A program made the translations under genes and the position numbers. A DNA stretch of 64,000 nucleotides. Origin: an uncultured Acidimicrobiales bacterium (GTDB lineage Bacteria > Actinomycetota > Acidimicrobiia > Acidimicrobiales > SHLQ01). Where the stretch lies: contig CALHTB010000022.1 of assembly GCA_938038785.1 (NCBI GenBank), forward strand, positions 1-64,000. Direction: 5' to 3'. Numbering within the stretch: position 1 is the first letter of the stretch; every line of letters begins with the position of its first letter. Shown here in pieces: positions 33,405 to 63,344 of the stretch. Under the pieces are notes generated by a model. The model was not told the origin of the DNA. It saw nothing but the letters and a program-made list of their open reading frames with translations, and did not search any database.

Positions 33405-33550
33405 GTCGGGACTTCCGCCCGACATCCGCTGGCACCTACATGGTCGTCCGCTCCGCTTCCTCCCCTTAAGCGCTTCCTCCAAGCGCTCAAGGAGAGCGAA
33501 GCTCGCGTAGCGAACTTGGAAGCTTCCGCGGATCTCGGCGGAAGTCCGAG
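33405..33550. repeat. Inverted-repeat element B (MITE-like)
   Basis: A 146-bp unit filling the gap between gluQ and the convergent DUF445 gene. Its ends (33405-33429 and 33528-33550) are imperfect terminal inverted repeats around GACTTCCGCC. Its inside carries AGTTCGCTACGCGAGCTTCG in reverse orientation, shared with the repeats at 53.8-54.2 kb, and GCGGACGACCATGTAGGT in reverse, shared with 37.8 kb. No coding potential. Confidence 0.75.
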
Positions 33551-53829: not shown

Positions 53830-53846
53830 TTCTCGAACTTCCGCCG

Positions 53847-53941
53847 AGATCCCCACTTCGCTTTCAAGTTCGCTACGCGAGCTTCGCTCTCCTCTCGCCG
53901 GAGGCGCCTCGTTTGTGCGTATACAGACTTTTGTTTTCGCT
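53847..53941 (+). repeat. 95-bp direct repeat, copy 1
   Basis: Identical to 54092-54186 except for one base (53926). It contains CAAGTTCGCTACGCGAGCTT and TTTGTGCGTATACAG, both seen elsewhere in the window. Confidence 0.9.
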
Positions 53942-54091
53942 GAAGAAAGCACAACGCTTGGACCAAGCGATGTTCCAGCTCGTAGAGATGGAACTCGGTT
54001 AGAGAGCGCAGCGAACGGCGGGAAGCCCGCCAGGGCTGAACCGATACCGCTACGCGAGCTTCGCTCTCATAAAGCGCTGGGACTCCCGCCC

Positions 54092-54186
54092 AGATCCCCA
54101 CTTCGCTTTCAAGTTCGCTACGCGAGCTTCGCTCTCCTCTCGCCGGAGGCGCCTCGTTTGTGCGTATACAAACTTTTGTTTTCGCT
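54092..54186 (+). repeat. 95-bp direct repeat, copy 2
   Basis: Second copy, starting 245 bases after the first; near identity implies recent duplication or ongoing gene conversion. Confidence 0.9.
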
Positions 54187-54406
54187 GCTACTTCTCGACA
54201 CTTCCGGTCGAGATCCGCGGAAGCCGACTTGGTCGCTACGCGAGCTCCGCTCCCCGAACGCGCTTTTTGAAGGCGACGTTTGGAGCGTCAGCGACAAACT
54301 CGAGTTCGAGGAAGCCCGCTAGGGCTGAGTCGATACCTGGGCCGTTTGAATCACTCAATGGCGCTACACCGCGGGAAGATCTGGGTCGATACCTAGGGAA
54401 GCTCTT

Positions 54407-56379: not shown

Positions 56380-56440
56380 CCATACGCGGCCCATACGAAA
56401 GGGTCACATATTGATATCGGACCCTTATGACCGCGTTCAC

Positions 56441-56446
56441 TACAGT
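56441..56446 (+). promoter_or_regulatory. TANNNT box deciding the dehydrogenase start
   Basis: TACAGT seven bases before ATG 56454 favours that codon over the in-frame ATG at 56427. Confidence 0.6.
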
Positions 56447-56453
56447 CGAGTCC

Positions 56454-58994
56454 ATGAAGACGAACACTCAGGTAGTAGTTGTTGGCGGCGGCGTGGTCGG
56501 GGCATCGATCCTGTATCACCTGACCAAGAACGGCTGGACCGATGTCGTCTTGCTCGAACGCACCGAGCTCACCGCCGGTTCGACCTGGCACTCCGCGGGC
56601 GGCATGCACACGATCAATGGCGACCCGAACGTAGCCAAGCTGCAGAAGTACACCATCGAGCTCTATCGAGAAATTGAAGAGCAGTCTGGCCAAGACTGCG
56701 GCATCCACATCACCGGCGGCGTCATGTTGGCCGACACCCCCGAGCGTGCTGACTGGTTGAAGGCCACCCACGCCAAGGGCCGCTACCTCGGTCTCGACAC
56801 CGAGCTGATCTCGGTTGACGAAGCCAACGAGATGCACCCGATCTTCGACAAGAAGTTCTTCGTCGGCGCCATGTACGACGCGCACGATGGCCACGTCGAC
56901 CCCACCGGCGTCACCCACGCCTACGCAAAGTGTGCCCGCCAGAACGGCGCCGAGGTGTACAAGGACACATGGGCTCGGGGCATGCGCCGTGCCCCCGACG
57001 GCGGCTGGCTCGTCGACACGATCAAGACCTCGACGGGCGAGGAGCTCGAGACCATCCACTGTGAACACGTGGTCAATGCCGGTGGCTTGTGGGGTCGTGA
57101 GGTTGGCCGCATGGTCGGCCTGGAGTTGCCGATCCTGGCCATGGCCCATCAGTACATCCTCACCGAAGACCTGCCCGAGGTTGCCGAGATCAACAAGTCG
57201 ACTGGCAAGGAGGTTCTCCACGCCGTTGACTTCGGCGGCGAAATTTACATGCGACAGGAAGCCGGTGGCCTGCTGCTCGGTACGTACGAGCCCAACGGCA
57301 TCCCGTGGTCGAAGAAGCAGACGCCGTGGGAGTTTGGCATGCAGCTACTGACCCCCGACCTTGAGCACCTAGCCGACCACTTGGCCACCGGCTTCGAGCA
57401 CTTCCCCATCTTCCAGAACGCTGGCATTAGCTCGGTCGTGAACGGCCCGTTCGTGTTCTCTCCCGACGGCAACCCGTGCATCGGTCCGGTGCGCGGCCTG
57501 CAGAATTACTGGTCGGCAACGGCGATCATGGCTGGCCTGTCTCAGGGGGGTGGCGTTGGTCTGGCGCTGGCTAACTGGATGACTGACGGCGATCCCGGCC
57601 ACGACATTTGGGGCATGGACATTGCCCGCTTCGGCGACTTCAACACCATGGCCTTCACCGAAACGAAGGTGCGCGAGAACTACGGCCGTCGTTTCCGCAT
57701 CACGTTCCCGAACGAGTTCTTGCCGCAGGGCCGCCAGCTGCAAACCACGCCGATCTACGACAAGCTCGTCGACGCCAACTGCGTCTTCGGCAACAGCTAC
57801 GGCCTCGAAGCCCCGCAGTGGTATCAAGAGGAAGGGCTGGACCCGGTCGAGGAGTTCACCTGGTATCGCAGCAACGCCTGGGACCAGGTCAAGAAGTCGA
57901 CCAAGGCCGTACGCGAGGGCGTCGGCATCATGGAAACGACGGGCTTTGCGAAGTTCAGCTTCAACGGCCCAGGCGCCCGTGAATGGCTCGACCGTGTACT
58001 CGCCGGGCGCATTCCCAAGGCCGGACGCATGTCGCTCACGCCGATGACCAACGAGAACGGCAAGCTCATCGGCGACCTCACGGTTGCCTGCTTGCCCGCA
58101 ACCCCTGGCGAGCCCGAAGGCCCCTATTCGACGCACACCGCTGGGGCCACCGGCAACACGACCGTCGAGCACGAACAGTTCATGATGTTCGGCTCGGGCG
58201 TGGCCACCCGCTACTACCAGCGCTACTTCGAGTCGCTGCTTCCAACCGACGGTTCGGTGCGCTACCGCACGCTCGGCTACGAGATGACAGGCCTGTCGAT
58301 CGCTGGGCCGAAGAGTCGCGAGCTGCTCGAGCGCCTTACCGAGAGAGATGTGTCAGCCGATGCGTTCAAGTTCATGGCGTTTAAGGAGATCGAGCTCGGG
58401 TGGGCCAAGGTCATGTGTGGTCGAGTCACCTTCTCGGGCGACCTTGGCTATGAGTTCTGGATGCCTGCGAGCTACCAGCGCTACTGCTTCGACCTGTTGA
58501 TGGAAGCCGGTGCCGATCTCGGCATCGAACTGTTCGGCTCCAAGACACTCGACTCGCTGCGTCTCGAGAAGAGCTTCGGTTCGTGGGCCCGCGAGTATCG
58601 CCCGATCTACGACCCGTTCGAAGCCAACCTCGGTCGCTTTGTCGACATGGACAAGGACTTCATTGGGCGCGACGCGCTGGTCGACATCGCGAAGAACGGT
58701 CCAGCCCGAAAGCTCTGCACCTGGGTTGTCGACTTGCCGACCGAAGGCCGCCAGGAGGGCGTTGCCGATGTCATTGGTGACGAGCCGGTGTGGCTCGATG
58801 GTGAAGTTGTGGGCTGGATCACCTCGGGCGGCTTTGCCCACCACAGCAACGTGTCGGTGGCCATGGGCTACGTCCCCACCGAGCACGCCGAACGCACCGA
58901 TGGGTGGCAGATCGAGATCCTCGGCGTCATGCGAGACGCCACCCTGCGCACCGAACCCATCTGGGACCCCAAAGCCGAAAAGATGCGCAGCTAG
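56454..58994 (+). CDS. Dimethylglycine/sarcosine dehydrogenase-type FAD-GcvT fusion enzyme
   Basis: An 846-residue two-domain enzyme. The N-terminal half is a DAO-type FAD domain (VVVVGGGVVGASILYHL dinucleotide fold). H46 in AGSTWHSAGG is at the position that carries covalent FAD in dimethylglycine and sarcosine dehydrogenases. The C-terminal half is a GcvT/aminomethyltransferase domain (about 430-840) that would pass the released one-carbon unit to tetrahydrofolate; GDLGYEFWMP and ERLEKSFGSW-like LRLEKSFGSW are typical. A role in demethylating betaine-derived methylamines is likely. ATG 56454 is supported by a TACAGT box. Its stop lies in a 27-bp tandem duplication. Confidence 0.85.
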   Translation: MKTNTQVVVVGGGVVGASILYHLTKNGWTDVVLLERTELTAGSTWHSAGGMHTINGDPNVAKLQKYTIELYREIEEQSGQDCGIHITGGVMLADTPERADWLKATHAKGRYLGLDTELISVDEANEMHPIFDKKFFVGAMYDAHDGHVDPTGVTHAYAKCARQNGAEVYKDTWARGMRRAPDGGWLVDTIKTSTGEELETIHCEHVVNAGGLWGREVGRMVGLELPILAMAHQYILTEDLPEVAEINKSTGKEVLHAVDFGGEIYMRQEAGGLLLGTYEPNGIPWSKKQTPWEFGMQLLTPDLEHLADHLATGFEHFPIFQNAGISSVVNGPFVFSPDGNPCIGPVRGLQNYWSATAIMAGLSQGGGVGLALANWMTDGDPGHDIWGMDIARFGDFNTMAFTETKVRENYGRRFRITFPNEFLPQGRQLQTTPIYDKLVDANCVFGNSYGLEAPQWYQEEGLDPVEEFTWYRSNAWDQVKKSTKAVREGVGIMETTGFAKFSFNGPGAREWLDRVLAGRIPKAGRMSLTPMTNENGKLIGDLTVACLPATPGEPEGPYSTHTAGATGNTTVEHEQFMMFGSGVATRYYQRYFESLLPTDGSVRYRTLGYEMTGLSIAGPKSRELLERLTERDVSADAFKFMAFKEIELGWAKVMCGRVTFSGDLGYEFWMPASYQRYCFDLLMEAGADLGIELFGSKTLDSLRLEKSFGSWAREYRPIYDPFEANLGRFVDMDKDFIGRDALVDIAKNGPARKLCTWVVDLPTEGRQEGVADVIGDEPVWLDGEVVGWITSGGFAHHSNVSVAMGYVPTEHAERTDGWQIEILGVMRDATLRTEPIWDPKAEKMRS

Positions 58995-59124: not shown

Positions 59125-59757
59125 ATGAGTCACGGCATTGACGCAGTCATCTTTGATCATGACGGAACGCTGGTTGATAGCGAGGGCATCACGTTGATGG
59201 TGGTGGCGGGCATCGCTACCGAGGCCGGGGCCGAGATCTACCCCGACGACCCCGACAGGTTTGTTGGCGCCGACTTGCACGTCGTGTTCGAAGAGATCGA
59301 GCGCCGCAGCGGCAAGCCGTTGCCCGACGACATCATGGAGCAGTTCCGGGCTCGTCAGACCGAGATGATTCGAGATGGCCTCCAGGAAGTCGACGGCGCA
59401 ACCGCTCTGCTCGCATCGCTGACAATTCCGCGAGCTGCGGCCTCGAACGCTCCGGTGGCAAAGATGGAGTTGTGTCTCGGCGCAACCGATCTGCTCCGGT
59501 TCTTTCCCGACGGCCATTTTCTCAGCGCCTATGACGTAAACGCATGGAAGCCCGACCCTGCGGTGTTCCTCGCTGCCGCTGAAGTCCTCGGTGTCGACCC
59601 AACGCGATGCGCGGTCGTGGAGGACAGTCGTCCCGGCGTCGAAGGGGCCATCGCTGCGGGCATGCAGGTCTTTGCGCTCGACCCGGGCAACCGGTTCACC
59701 GACCTGTCCGGCTTCACCCGAATCTCCAAGCTCGCCGAGCTCAGCGAGTACCTCTAG
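59125..59757 (+). CDS. HAD-superfamily phosphatase
   Basis: A 210-residue HAD hydrolase of the beta-phosphoglucomutase-like subfamily. Motif I is DHDGTLVDSE (nucleophile and general acid Asp), motif II SNAP, motif III lysine in NAWKPDP and motif IV VVEDSRPGVEGA. It should dephosphorylate a small sugar phosphate or similar metabolite. TAGCGT (59113-59118) is six bases upstream of ATG. Its stop directly abuts the stop of the convergent GT87 gene with no base between. Confidence 0.87.
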   Translation: MSHGIDAVIFDHDGTLVDSEGITLMVVAGIATEAGAEIYPDDPDRFVGADLHVVFEEIERRSGKPLPDDIMEQFRARQTEMIRDGLQEVDGATALLASLTIPRAAASNAPVAKMELCLGATDLLRFFPDGHFLSAYDVNAWKPDPAVFLAAAEVLGVDPTRCAVVEDSRPGVEGAIAAGMQVFALDPGNRFTDLSGFTRISKLAELSEYL

Positions 59758-60960
59758 CTACGCCGCCCTCGGCAAGTCGGTTGCAGTGAAACTGACATCC
59801 GGGGTTTGACCCTCGATGTCAGACGACCAATCCGTTCCGACGGAGCGACCCCACACCACAGCGGCGGCCAACATGCCAATCGTTGATGGGGCGACAATGT
59901 CGTTGATCGACGCAAACGGCTCAAACGACATGATCGTCATAAGCGAGCTGATGACATAAATCGCGATGAGCTGTTCGAGCACTCGCCTTGGCACGCCTGC
60001 CTGAACGGCAACAGCGAATGGAATTACGACGAGTGTGGTGTCGTAGATCAACAAGTGCGGCGAGACGAGAATCGACGCGAAAACCGCTGCACCTGAGGCA
60101 AGGTCGACCCGGTCGGGCCACACACGCAGGGCCATCCGAAGCACAACTGCGGCGATGCCGAGAATGACCAGTTGGGTCACCGCGCTCGTTCCGATCTCGA
60201 AACCAAGCGCACGCGACACCAGCTCACTGACCGTTGGTTGGTTGTAGACAATGTCGATTTGGCTGCGCTCGTCAAGCGCCGCAAGAAAGGCCTTCCACAC
60301 ACCAAATCCGCCGATAAGCGTTGCCGACACAAGCGTCGTCCCGAGTGCGAACGCAGACAACAGAGCCGGGTACCAACGCCGCCAATCCACCAGCCACCAG
60401 ATCGCAACTCCGAGCAACAATGTCGGCTTCAGTACCGCGAGCCCAGCAACAAGACCGGCGGGCACGGTTCGTCCATCGACACACAACCGGTGGATCGCAG
60501 CGGCCCACAGCAGCGCGAAGAATCCAGTCTGGGCGTGGTAAATATTCGCCACCCCAAGTGGAAGCGCCAGGGCGAGGAAACCAGCCCACACCGGAAGGCG
60601 AAGGAGTTTCAGCGCGCCGAAGACGGCGAGCACACTCAACACCATCCAGACCACGAGTGCCGTGTTTCCTGACAACCACGACAGCGGCAAGAGCGCCCAG
60701 GCAAATGGTGGCGTGCTGATAAACACATCGAGCTCGCGAGCAGATTCGACGTCCATGTCAATCGCAGCTGCGCGAAAAACATTCGGATCGTATGCCTCCT
60801 CCAGCCGCCCCTCGCCAGCGAACTCGGCACCGAGATGGAGTACTCGAAAGTCGGTGAACGCCCGAGCGCGATTAACCCAGAAGCCGAACGCGTAGATCAA
60901 CCCCGAGAACAGCATGAAGACGCGTATGACGCGTGTTCCCAATGAGTCCGCTTCCGACAT
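59758..60960 (-). CDS. GT87/DUF2029-family polyprenol-dependent mannosyltransferase-like protein
   Basis: A 400-residue polytopic membrane protein, about ten helices, resembling actinobacterial GT87 alpha-mannosyltransferases that use polyprenyl-phosphate mannose outside the membrane. An early RVLHLGAEFAGEGRLEEAYDP loop and a VFISTPPFAWALLPLSW stretch are typical. GGAG precedes ATG 60960. The last about 20 residues are read through a copy of the 31-bp palindrome, so that tail (SSDIEGQTPDVSF) is not likely to be ancestral. Confidence 0.78.
   Translation of the reverse strand: MSEADSLGTRVIRVFMLFSGLIYAFGFWVNRARAFTDFRVLHLGAEFAGEGRLEEAYDPNVFRAAAIDMDVESARELDVFISTPPFAWALLPLSWLSGNTALVVWMVLSVLAVFGALKLLRLPVWAGFLALALPLGVANIYHAQTGFFALLWAAAIHRLCVDGRTVPAGLVAGLAVLKPTLLLGVAIWWLVDWRRWYPALLSAFALGTTLVSATLIGGFGVWKAFLAALDERSQIDIVYNQPTVSELVSRALGFEIGTSAVTQLVILGIAAVVLRMALRVWPDRVDLASGAAVFASILVSPHLLIYDTTLVVIPFAVAVQAGVPRRVLEQLIAIYVISSLMTIMSFEPFASINDIVAPSTIGMLAAAVVWGRSVGTDWSSDIEGQTPDVSFTATDLPRAA
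59792..59822. repeat. 31-bp hyper-palindrome, copy 3, inside a coding 3' end
   Basis: Same palindrome as 711 and 15301, with a few arm mismatches. It is translated in the GT87 C-terminus and lies near two convergent stops. Confidence 0.85.
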
Positions 60961-61003
60961 TTGCTCCAAATCGGCCGAAGCGACCACGAGATAAGGGCGT
61001 GTT

Positions 61004-61930
61004 CTAGTTGCCGGCGCCTTCGAGCGTGCCTTCGACGAGCACCGTCTCGTTCGCGTCGCCCACGAGGCACTGCACCTTGCGGTCGCCGCGGCCCCATCGA
61101 GGCTCGGTCGGAACGAAGGTCCATACCTGCCAGGGCGAGCTTGCGAACTCTCCACCGACGAACTCGTCGTACTGTGCCCGGCAGAAGTCTTGCCCGATGG
61201 CGAACGTTCGCTCGACCCCGGGGTACCCCTCGGACGTGACATCGCTGAACACACTGTTCGACGTCGTGAACACCTCATAAGCGTGGGCCTTATCGCAGTC
61301 GGTGGTGTCGACCACGAAGACGTTGCGGAACTCACCCTCAACTTCGCTGAAGAAGTCGCTGATGCACTGGCCCGACTCGAGCTCGGTGACAAGCGTTGCG
61401 GACTGCACACGGTCGATGAAGAGATAGCCGTAGTAGGCAACACCAAGCACAGCGAGAATGGCGATTCCGTTGAGCACCTTCTTGACGACTGGAGACATAC
61501 CCGGCGGGCGAAGGTCGGGGCGGCTGTCCTTCTTCTTGTGCTTGGCGGCTTTGCTCTTTTCGCCCTCGACCTCCTCGGCTTTGGCCTGGTTCTTTTGCGC
61601 CTCCATATGTGCGGCCATCTCCGCGCCCGTCGGCGGGAACATCCCATCAAAGTCCATCGGAGCAGCCGCTGCCTCTACCGGGACGGGGATGGAGTCGGCC
61701 GGAGCAGCGGGAGGTGCTGGCTGGCTTCCTGGCGCACTCGTAAGGGCGGCGGCTGGAATCGGGGGCGGGGTGAGGTCGGGTGACGCAGCCGGCGCTGATG
61801 GTTCAGGCACCGGTGCTAGTGCGGCTGGCTCAGATTTGAGCATTGCAGATGACTGAATGTCTGGAGGTAGGGCTGGAAGTTGCGGGCGCTCAATAGCGTC
61901 CAATGCAGAGATCCCAGGAGTGCCGTCCAT
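61004..61930 (-). CDS. Septum formation family protein
   Basis: A 308-residue bitopic protein. It has a Pro/Ala-rich cytoplasmic N-terminus of about 145 residues with a Lys-rich stretch, one transmembrane helix (ILAVLGVAYYGYLFI), then an extracytoplasmic Septum_form-type domain with ESGQCISDF, a DCDKAHAYEVF segment and further cysteines. Such proteins are linked to septation in actinobacteria, mostly by homology. Start taken as the first ATG; internal starts are possible. It lies 44 bases upstream of the GT87 gene on the same strand. Confidence 0.75.
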   Translation of the reverse strand: MDGTPGISALDAIERPQLPALPPDIQSSAMLKSEPAALAPVPEPSAPAASPDLTPPPIPAAALTSAPGSQPAPPAAPADSIPVPVEAAAAPMDFDGMFPPTGAEMAAHMEAQKNQAKAEEVEGEKSKAAKHKKKDSRPDLRPPGMSPVVKKVLNGIAILAVLGVAYYGYLFIDRVQSATLVTELESGQCISDFFSEVEGEFRNVFVVDTTDCDKAHAYEVFTTSNSVFSDVTSEGYPGVERTFAIGQDFCRAQYDEFVGGEFASSPWQVWTFVPTEPRWGRGDRKVQCLVGDANETVLVEGTLEGAGN

Positions 61931-62006: not shown

Positions 62007-63344
62007 ATGACAGGACGAATTTTGCCAGGTTCGATGGCGCCGGGGAGAGAGTTCTTTCGTCACCGCGACGGTGACGGAACGCCCGAATTCACCCTCGCCT
62101 CAACCGACAACCATCACCTCGTACTCGGCCCTGGCGAACCAGCCATCAGCGAAATCGCTGCGGCAGGGGTGCCGTTGCCCGATCTCGAAGCGATCCGGGT
62201 GTATCGCCAAGGTCGGGTGAAGCAAAAGCTCAACGAGTTTGGATACGACGCCGTTTTGGTGATGGACCCGCTCAACATTCGCTACATCACCGATACGACC
62301 AACATGCAGGTGTGGGTCACACACAACGCGGCCCGGTACGCGCTCATGACCGCCGACGGCTATGTGATCTTGTGGGACTACGAGAACTGTCAGTTCCTTG
62401 CCGGGCACCATGACCATGTCGACGAAGTCCGGGCCGGGATCGGCTCGACCTATTTCCTCGCCGGTGATCGATTCGCAGAAATCTCCCAGCGATGGGCCGA
62501 CGAGATGGCCGAAGTCATCACCGCCCGATGCGGCCCGAACGCTCGGGTAGCGGTCGACCAAGTCAATTTCCTCGAAGGCACGATGCTCACGAACCACGGC
62601 ATCACCATCGAGCGGGGCCAACAGCTCATGGAACAAGCCCGCCTCATCAAGAGCGCGGACGAGCTCGACTCCATGCGCTGCGCCGGAGTTGCGTGCACCG
62701 AAGCCATGCGCGAAATGGCCGAAGCAGTTCAGCCGGGCATGACCGAGCAAGACGTTTGGGCCATGTTGCACGCGGGCAACATCCGCCGCGGAGGCGAATG
62801 GATCGAAACGCAGATCTTGTCATCGGGACCTCGCACCAACCCGTGGTTTCAGGAGGCCTCATCTCGCGTTATCGAGAACGGCGACATCTTGGCCTATGAC
62901 ACCGACCTCATTGGCGCCTACGGCCAATGCATCGACATCAGCCGCACCTGGGTGGTGGGCGACAAGGCGCCAACGGCACACCAAAAGTCGATCTATGAGA
63001 TGGCGCTGCACCAGATCAATCACAACATCGAGCTCATCAAACCCGGCGTGACCGTCGAAGAGCTCACGCACAAGAGCTGGACCCCGCCGGTCGATCAGTA
63101 CCGCCATTACTCGTGCCTGTTCCACGGGGTCGGCCAGTGCGATGAGTACCCCGAGGTCTACTTCCCGGCAGCGTGGGATGACTGGGGCATCGACTGCACT
63201 CTCGAACCTGGCATGGTGCTCAGCGTCGAGGCCTACGTAGGTAGTCGAGACGGCGGCGAAGGCGTGAAGCTAGAAGAACAGTTCGTCGTCACCGAAACGG
63301 GCTATGAACTCGTGGCCCACTTCCCCCTCGACCTCGAACTCTAA
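62007..63344 (+). CDS. dddP: DddP-type DMSP lyase (M24 peptidase-like metalloenzyme)
   Basis: A 445-residue creatinase/M24-fold protein that aligns closely with what I recall of DddP, the enzyme cleaving dimethylsulfoniopropionate to acrylate and DMS. The metal ligands fall at D298, D300, D310, H373, E408 and E423, matching Ruegeria lacuscaerulensis D295, D297, D307, H371, E406 and E421. The proposed base D377 matches D379 (HGVGQCDE) and Y366 matches Y368. Family-specific stretches DPLNIRYITDTTNMQVW and GGEWIETQILSSGPRTNPWF are also present. ATG 62007 fits the family N-terminus. An M24 aminopeptidase without lyase activity is the alternative. Confidence 0.83.
   Translation: MTGRILPGSMAPGREFFRHRDGDGTPEFTLASTDNHHLVLGPGEPAISEIAAAGVPLPDLEAIRVYRQGRVKQKLNEFGYDAVLVMDPLNIRYITDTTNMQVWVTHNAARYALMTADGYVILWDYENCQFLAGHHDHVDEVRAGIGSTYFLAGDRFAEISQRWADEMAEVITARCGPNARVAVDQVNFLEGTMLTNHGITIERGQQLMEQARLIKSADELDSMRCAGVACTEAMREMAEAVQPGMTEQDVWAMLHAGNIRRGGEWIETQILSSGPRTNPWFQEASSRVIENGDILAYDTDLIGAYGQCIDISRTWVVGDKAPTAHQKSIYEMALHQINHNIELIKPGVTVEELTHKSWTPPVDQYRHYSCLFHGVGQCDEYPEVYFPAAWDDWGIDCTLEPGMVLSVEAYVGSRDGGEGVKLEEQFVVTETGYELVAHFPLDLEL

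Follow-up and report, generated by a model that had tools for sequence, protein, structure and literature searches.

A DddP-like M24-fold protein of an uncultured acidimicrobial bacterium belongs to a sister clade of DddP and may act on a betaine-type osmolyte

Does an uncultured bacterium of the Acidimicrobiales carry a genuine DMSP lyase? The question is raised by a gene at positions 62007-63344 (plus strand) of a 64,000-nucleotide stretch of DNA, hereafter the window, which lies on contig 22 of a 134-contig genome of 3.7 Mb that is 73% complete. Counts of the gene dddP commonly serve to gauge how many bacteria can make dimethyl sulfide, a climate gas, from DMSP, and an earlier note on this DNA had read the present gene as a DddP-type DMSP lyase. 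It is an uninterrupted open reading frame of 445 codons and a stop, encoding an M24-fold metalloenzyme of 445 residues that we call the DddP-like protein. Its frame is already open from 61857, upstream of the start at 62007, and a 91%-identical relative from the same genus aligns with residue 1 of that start. Among the matches listed, the closest named one, again at 91%, belongs to an uncultured Acidimicrobiales MAG, and others come from Candidatus Microthrix and Ilumatobacter MAGs.

The actinobacterial context had been put forward as the remarkable feature of this gene. A DddP homologue is indeed present, but its presence in Acidimicrobiia is not new, since Acidimicrobiia and other actinobacterial homologues have been predicted from MAGs (PMC7494906, PMC13280387). 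Its distribution in actinobacteria is patchy. Of the 59 genomes searched, 17 have a copy that is at least 56% identical, and an even draw of the phylum gave a match with E of at most 1e-90 in 8 of 396 genomes, six of these eight matching at 58% identity or more (the genome studied here is counted in both searches). A 2018 study describes sequenced actinobacteria as having no known functional ddd gene, though isolates release dimethyl sulfide from DMSP (PMC6309047). The DddP-like gene would not explain those isolates, because they belong to other genera. The genome also holds a second, deeper DddP-like paralogue on contig 34 (43668-44822; L002 / L164), with 36% identity and 300.6 bits to the DddP family model NF043017, and similar paralogues occur in several genomes of the genus.

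The M24 fold is common to enzymes of very different activities, among them Xaa-Pro peptidases. In a phmmer search of solved chains the DddP-like protein scored 381.5 bits with the DddP of Ruegeria lacuscaerulensis (RlDddP) and 362.3 bits with that of Roseobacter denitrificans (RdDddP), against 68.3 bits for the next best chain, a peptidase, a likeness to the two that is far beyond chance. The AlphaFold model has a mean pLDDT of 86.4, with confidence below 50 at residues 1-23, 101-105 (a segment that contains W103) and 129-133. It matches RlDddP with a query-normalised TM score of 0.88, at 1.8-1.9 A over 416 columns that include the N-terminal domain, whereas the scores of peptidases, DoeA and creatinase in the list of 50 matches lie at 0.58-0.69 when normalised by the query and go up to 0.83 by the target. 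The reading as an Xaa-Pro peptidase falls because phmmer gap and fold both favour DddP, and Asp379 and Phe281 stand where an M24 paralogue in the same genome (L003), which has five of the six metal ligands, carries two histidines. Such a histidine exchange in DddP has been suggested to abolish peptidase activity (PMC5395565). In the actinobacterial branch 23 of the 39 rows have Met or Tyr in place of Phe281. The protein is therefore a member of the DddP superfamily and no peptidase, as had been supposed from the sequence.

Is it DddP proper? With 474.9 bits it stays under the curated cut-off of 600 bits of the NCBIfam equivalog model NF043017, which none of the 11 genomes of the genus reaches. 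Of 24 further genomes or records, nine pass it: Loktanella (870), Paracoccus (849), Oceanimonas (629), Oceanisphaera, Psychrobacter, Leucothrix, two Pseudomonas and one SAR116 copy. It is no clean limit, since a SAR116 copy that belongs to clade I, the clade of RlDddP and RdDddP, misses it at 588.7 (L114).

Phylogeny places the protein more precisely. We built a tree of 112 rows, leaving out L043, L044, L045 and L050 (duplicates of relatives), L026-L035 and the repeat fetches L123-L139 and L141-L158, as well as trees of two hand-picked subsets of 62 and 52 rows, the former bootstrapped. Fungal DddP and the DddP2 of Oceanimonas doudoroffii are likewise proven in print, so that the proven set may reach beyond the clade of RlDddP and RdDddP. 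In both the 112- and the 62-row trees the window protein falls into a clade II that is the sister of clade I. Support in the 62-row tree is 100/99 for clade I, 97/94 for clade II with the window protein inside, and 99/96 for the two joined. AU tests, for which the groups were named after the first tree had been inspected, rejected a window genus forced into clade I (p-AU 2.15e-9) and did not reject a union of the whole actinobacterial branch with clade I in place of one with the Roseibium/Mesorhizobium branch (p-AU 0.077). Clade II as one clade is thus not firm. The phylogeny that the earlier note had proposed as a check upholds membership of the superfamily but not a place inside clade I, and of its identification we retain a DddP-type protein; DddP proper is not supported as it stands.

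The active site does not separate the two clades. Alignment with RlDddP equates D295, D297 and D307 of that enzyme with D298, D300 and D310 here, at an offset of three, and Y366, H371, D377, E406 and E421 with Y368, H373, D379, E408 and E423, at an offset of two, so that the correspondence with Ruegeria DddP at a nearly constant offset was correctly seen. In RdDddP the same six metal ligands have been named, with Asp377 and Tyr366 as candidate bases (PMC4108388). The tyrosine, the aspartate and five of the ligands (D298, D300, D310, H373 and E423 in our numbering) are identical in all 99 rows of clades I and II (33 and 66 rows, respectively), and the equivalent of RlDddP E406 in 98 of the 99. 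W103, which we take to be the tryptophan meant in the proposed DddP mechanism, is likewise kept in 99 of 99. Within clade II, W103, Y368, the proposed base D379 and the six ligands are present in 66 of 66 rows; of 12 rows from more distant relatives, all 12 retain the ligands, 11 the tyrosine and 7 the aspartate. These residues had been cited in favour of DddP. They are all there, but ligands, tyrosine and aspartate are alike in clades I and II and therefore do not discriminate, and we reject their conservation as proof of a DMSP lyase. One difference is fixed: all 33 clade I rows have G282, where all 66 clade II rows have S285. Partial differences between the clades are A103/Y111, F155/W163 and P283/S286.

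Gene neighbours offer another view of function. A gene at 56427-58994 (plus strand), 3.0 kb from the DddP-like gene, encodes an FAD/GcvT protein of 855 residues with DAO, FAO_M, GCV_T and GCV_T_C domains. Its best solved matches, dimethylglycine dehydrogenase at 496.4 bits and then N,N-dimethylglycine oxidase at 254.8, point to an enzyme of dimethylglycine-dehydrogenase type. A methylamine dehydrogenase-type gene had been announced at this distance; the distance is right, the identity is not, both the domains and the best match speaking against it. The three genes in between are taken as unrelated: a HAD-type hydrolase (59125-59757, plus strand) with no sign of belonging, a GT87-type glycosyltransferase-like frame (59758-60987, minus strand, start approximate) and a Septum_form-domain protein (61004-61930, minus strand) divergent from the DddP-like gene. 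Linkage is loose in the window genus: of the 8 genomes that carry the window-type gene, no more than 3 place the dehydrogenase within 3.1 kb of it on one contig. The window also contains a GC-rich interspersed repeat, CGCTACGCGAGCTTCGCTCTC, at 53832-54264 and 33492-33512, with five copies at three mismatches or fewer against a mean of 0.00 in 100 shuffles. The region includes a 111-nt duplication (53832-53942 and 54077-54187, 95%), and the 205 fetched loci hold no exact copy of the repeat.

The association is much clearer across the superfamily. We compared 80 named loci, 52 of clade II and 28 of clade I; they are the best 80 of at least 592 matches, so that distant relatives are under-sampled, and all counts in this paragraph refer to them. 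All 52 clade II loci offered flanks of at least 2.7 kb, as did 25 of the 28 clade I loci. A dimethylglycine-dehydrogenase-type gene occurs in 31 of the 52 loci of clade II, against 1 of the 28 of clade I (Fisher p 2.7e-7, relatedness ignored). It lies within 200 bp in 21 of 52 against 0 of 28, and in 21 of the 52 clade II loci it directly precedes the DddP-like gene. An MTTB-family gene is present in 30 of 52 against 1 of 28. Mesorhizobium contributes 18 of the 80 loci, all of clade II and each with both an MTTB and a dimethylglycine-dehydrogenase-type gene; without them the dehydrogenase contrast is 13 of 34 against 1 of 28 (p 0.0016). On the tree the linkage changes 11 times. The dehydrogenase tree, window copy included, shows an actinobacterial versus Roseibium/Mesorhizobium split that largely mirrors the clade II tree, which suggests that the dehydrogenase and the DddP-like gene were inherited jointly; the match is imperfect, because Kiloniella and Ilumatobacter take other positions than they do among the DddP-like genes. 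Candidatus Microthrix has the MTTB gene first, then the dehydrogenase and then the DddP-like gene, the last two nearly touching. Among solved proteins the Microthrix MTTB best matches 4yyc (322.6 bits), labelled a putative trimethylamine methyltransferase, and it scores 305 bits with glycine betaine methyltransferase against 129 with the trimethylamine methyltransferase 7xcl; trimethylamine may still be its substrate.

Further genes adjoin members of the superfamily. A mandelate-racemase-family gene lies beside six actinobacterial clade II genes (L058, L059, L060, L063, L064, L065) and is 59-63% identical to a copy in Leucothrix (L115, clade I); inspection of these six clade II loci and the one clade I locus gave no hint of its substrate. 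A DddP-like group with a short N-terminus (L037, L040, L041, L204) has Rieske oxygenase neighbours, of which that of L204 resembles the glycine betaine monooxygenase GbcA (442.9 bits, cut-off 670). BCCT- or ProU-type transporters lie near L037, L040 and L204 (for L204 judged by sequence alone), and in the Rhizobium member of the group a 4-hydroxyproline epimerase also adjoins. This group would be another betaine-type context for relatives of DddP. In open-access PMC text we found no link of DddP-like genes with a dimethylglycine/betaine cassette or a betaine-type Rieske gene, and among the matches listed for hydroxyproline betaine nothing was related by title.

The genome itself seems to belong to a user of methylated amines, perhaps a specialist, since it holds nine MTTB-family matches, all on contigs other than that of the window, and sixteen stretches matching the dehydrogenase, though some are pieces of one gene or match the GcvT part only. 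The suspicion of osmolyte use that accompanied the first reading of this DNA appears well placed, given how often clade II genes stand beside dimethylglycine- and betaine-type genes. We therefore favour, with a probability just under one half (about 0.47), a DddP-like onium lyase acting in the catabolism of betaine-type osmolytes. The protein would be a two-metal lyase of the M24 fold, working as a dimer that binds an onium compound bearing a carboxylate. The two metals would hold the carboxylate, and W103 and Y368 would lie close to the cationic head; Asp379 would take the alpha proton and the onium group would leave. This follows the proposal made for DddP, in which the metals hold the carboxylate, a tryptophan and a tyrosine face the sulfur and an aspartate is the base (PMC5395565), elements that all have counterparts in the DddP-like protein. 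A site of this kind could accommodate either a sulfonium or an N-methyl onium head. Site chemistry and gene neighbours together make an N-onium compound or betaine derivative a somewhat likelier everyday substrate than DMSP, which might be a side substrate. One conceivable reaction is the conversion of beta-alanine betaine to trimethylamine and acrylate, which would be a nitrogen counterpart to the cleavage of DMSP. The partners in the breakdown of N-methylated osmolytes would probably be an MTTB-family betaine methyltransferase and dimethylglycine dehydrogenase.

Might the enzyme nevertheless be a real DMSP lyase, yielding dimethyl sulfide and acrylate, with betaine genes close by through the joint import and breakdown of DMSP and betaines? 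We regard this as a serious possibility that falls short of even odds. All catalytic residues are kept, and divergent relatives are active: the DddP2 of O. doudoroffii is described as cleaving DMSP more efficiently than DddP1 and as differing from most DddPs, and expression in E. coli of the 55%-identical DddP of the scallop symbiont HWgs001 released dimethyl sulfide (PMC10989825). The first ligand of the symbiont enzyme, D263, is nearer to the D265 of the short-N-terminus type than to the listed rows of clades I and II (285-311), so that clade II may lie between relatives that cleave DMSP. Among 21 genomes drawn around an Oceanimonas genome, 8 gave a match at E 1e-40 and two contain the short-N-terminus type (D265); one of the genomes (G466) has three copies, two of clade I and one with the short N-terminus, and which of them, if any, is DddP2 is a guess. 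Betaine-type genes also occur near some clade I genes: 3 of 31 clade I loci, plasmids included, have a GbcA-like Rieske gene, one a BCCT and one an MTTB gene. Against a DMSP lyase stand the place of the protein outside clade I and the NF043017 cut-off missed throughout the genus, imperfect as that limit is. The acrylate side of the pathway gives a divided answer. Of the prpE and acuI genes that the earlier note wished to see, an AcuI/YhdH protein is found, at 429.7 bits against a cut-off of 297.25 and above it in 10 of 11 genus genomes, but no PrpE exceeds its cut-off in the 11, although the step could fall to different acyl-CoA ligases. Nor does AcuI/YhdH mark DMSP users alone: 2 of 14 control genomes exceed the cut-off. 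A DmdA-like protein of the genome comes near its cut-off (396.6 against 410 bits), which 0 of 11 genus genomes pass. An AcuI/YhdH-type gene accompanies 3 of 31 clade I genes, plasmids included, directly upstream of DddP in three SAR116-type loci (L096, L114, L120), an order that would fit real DMSP cleavage, whereas none of the 52 clade II loci has an AcuI- or DmdA-like gene nearby. An enoyl-CoA-hydratase-family gene near one clade II gene (L058) could serve acrylate.

An improbable third reading is a hydrolase of C-N bonds, similar to creatinase or ectoine hydrolase, that would release dimethylglycine or sarcosine for the neighbouring dehydrogenase. A neighbouring dehydrogenase of dimethylglycine type would fit it, and DoeA and creatinase share the fold superfamily, with TM scores of 0.65-0.68 to the model. 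Yet sequence and fold are much nearer to DddP, and the histidines of the M24 paralogue L003 are replaced by Asp379 and Phe281.

The choice between an onium lyase of the betaine pathway and a DMSP lyase has consequences for environmental counts. Published searches for dddP used limits of E 1e-30 (PMC8520302) or below 1e-70 (PMC5395565), and such limits would probably count the DddP-like protein, which is 44% identical to RlDddP; in PMC8520302 hits were curated by tree and key residues, and two DddP sequences were assayed. A sediment survey predicted dddP in 37.8% of bacteria on average, with Pseudomonas and Mesorhizobium prominent (PMC7039863), and the Mesorhizobium genes among our best 80 of at least 592 matches are, as noted, of clade II. 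Should clade II have another substrate, counts based on dddP are inflated; should it cleave DMSP, a candidate lyase is added for an actinobacterial class. That clade II forms a separate N-onium lyase or another enzyme of the betaine pathway, so that a sizeable share of metagenomic 'dddP', Mesorhizobium and Acidimicrobiia included, makes no dimethyl sulfide, is conceivable, though less likely than not.

How does the DddP-like protein compare with known systems? RlDddP (4rzy/4s00/4s01) and RdDddP (4b28) are its closest solved relatives, alike in fold (TM 0.87-0.88), in the six ligands, in Tyr366 and Asp377, in a tryptophan equivalent to W103 and in length. They are 44% and 42% identical to it, form the sister clade, have G282 instead of S285 and keep other gene neighbours. 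The M24B Xaa-Pro peptidases, DoeA and creatinase have the pita-bread fold in common with it at 16-25% identity, among the 50 matches listed, and differ from it in histidines that are Asp and Phe in the DddP-like protein. The Acidimicrobiia 'dddP' of ocean MAGs (PMC7494906, PMC13280387) comes from the same class; those assignments are predictions from sequence similarity. DddP2 and the HWgs001 DddP are, like the DddP-like protein, divergent relatives of DddP, and these do cleave DMSP. The ligand numbering of the symbiont enzyme indicates that they are probably of the short-N-terminus type; if this is true of DddP2, then clade II has DMSP-cleaving enzymes on either side of it. The protein is ordinary as one more DddP homologue of the Acidimicrobiia; its moderate interest lies in its membership of a distinct sister clade, in which the neighbouring genes suggest a substrate other than DMSP.
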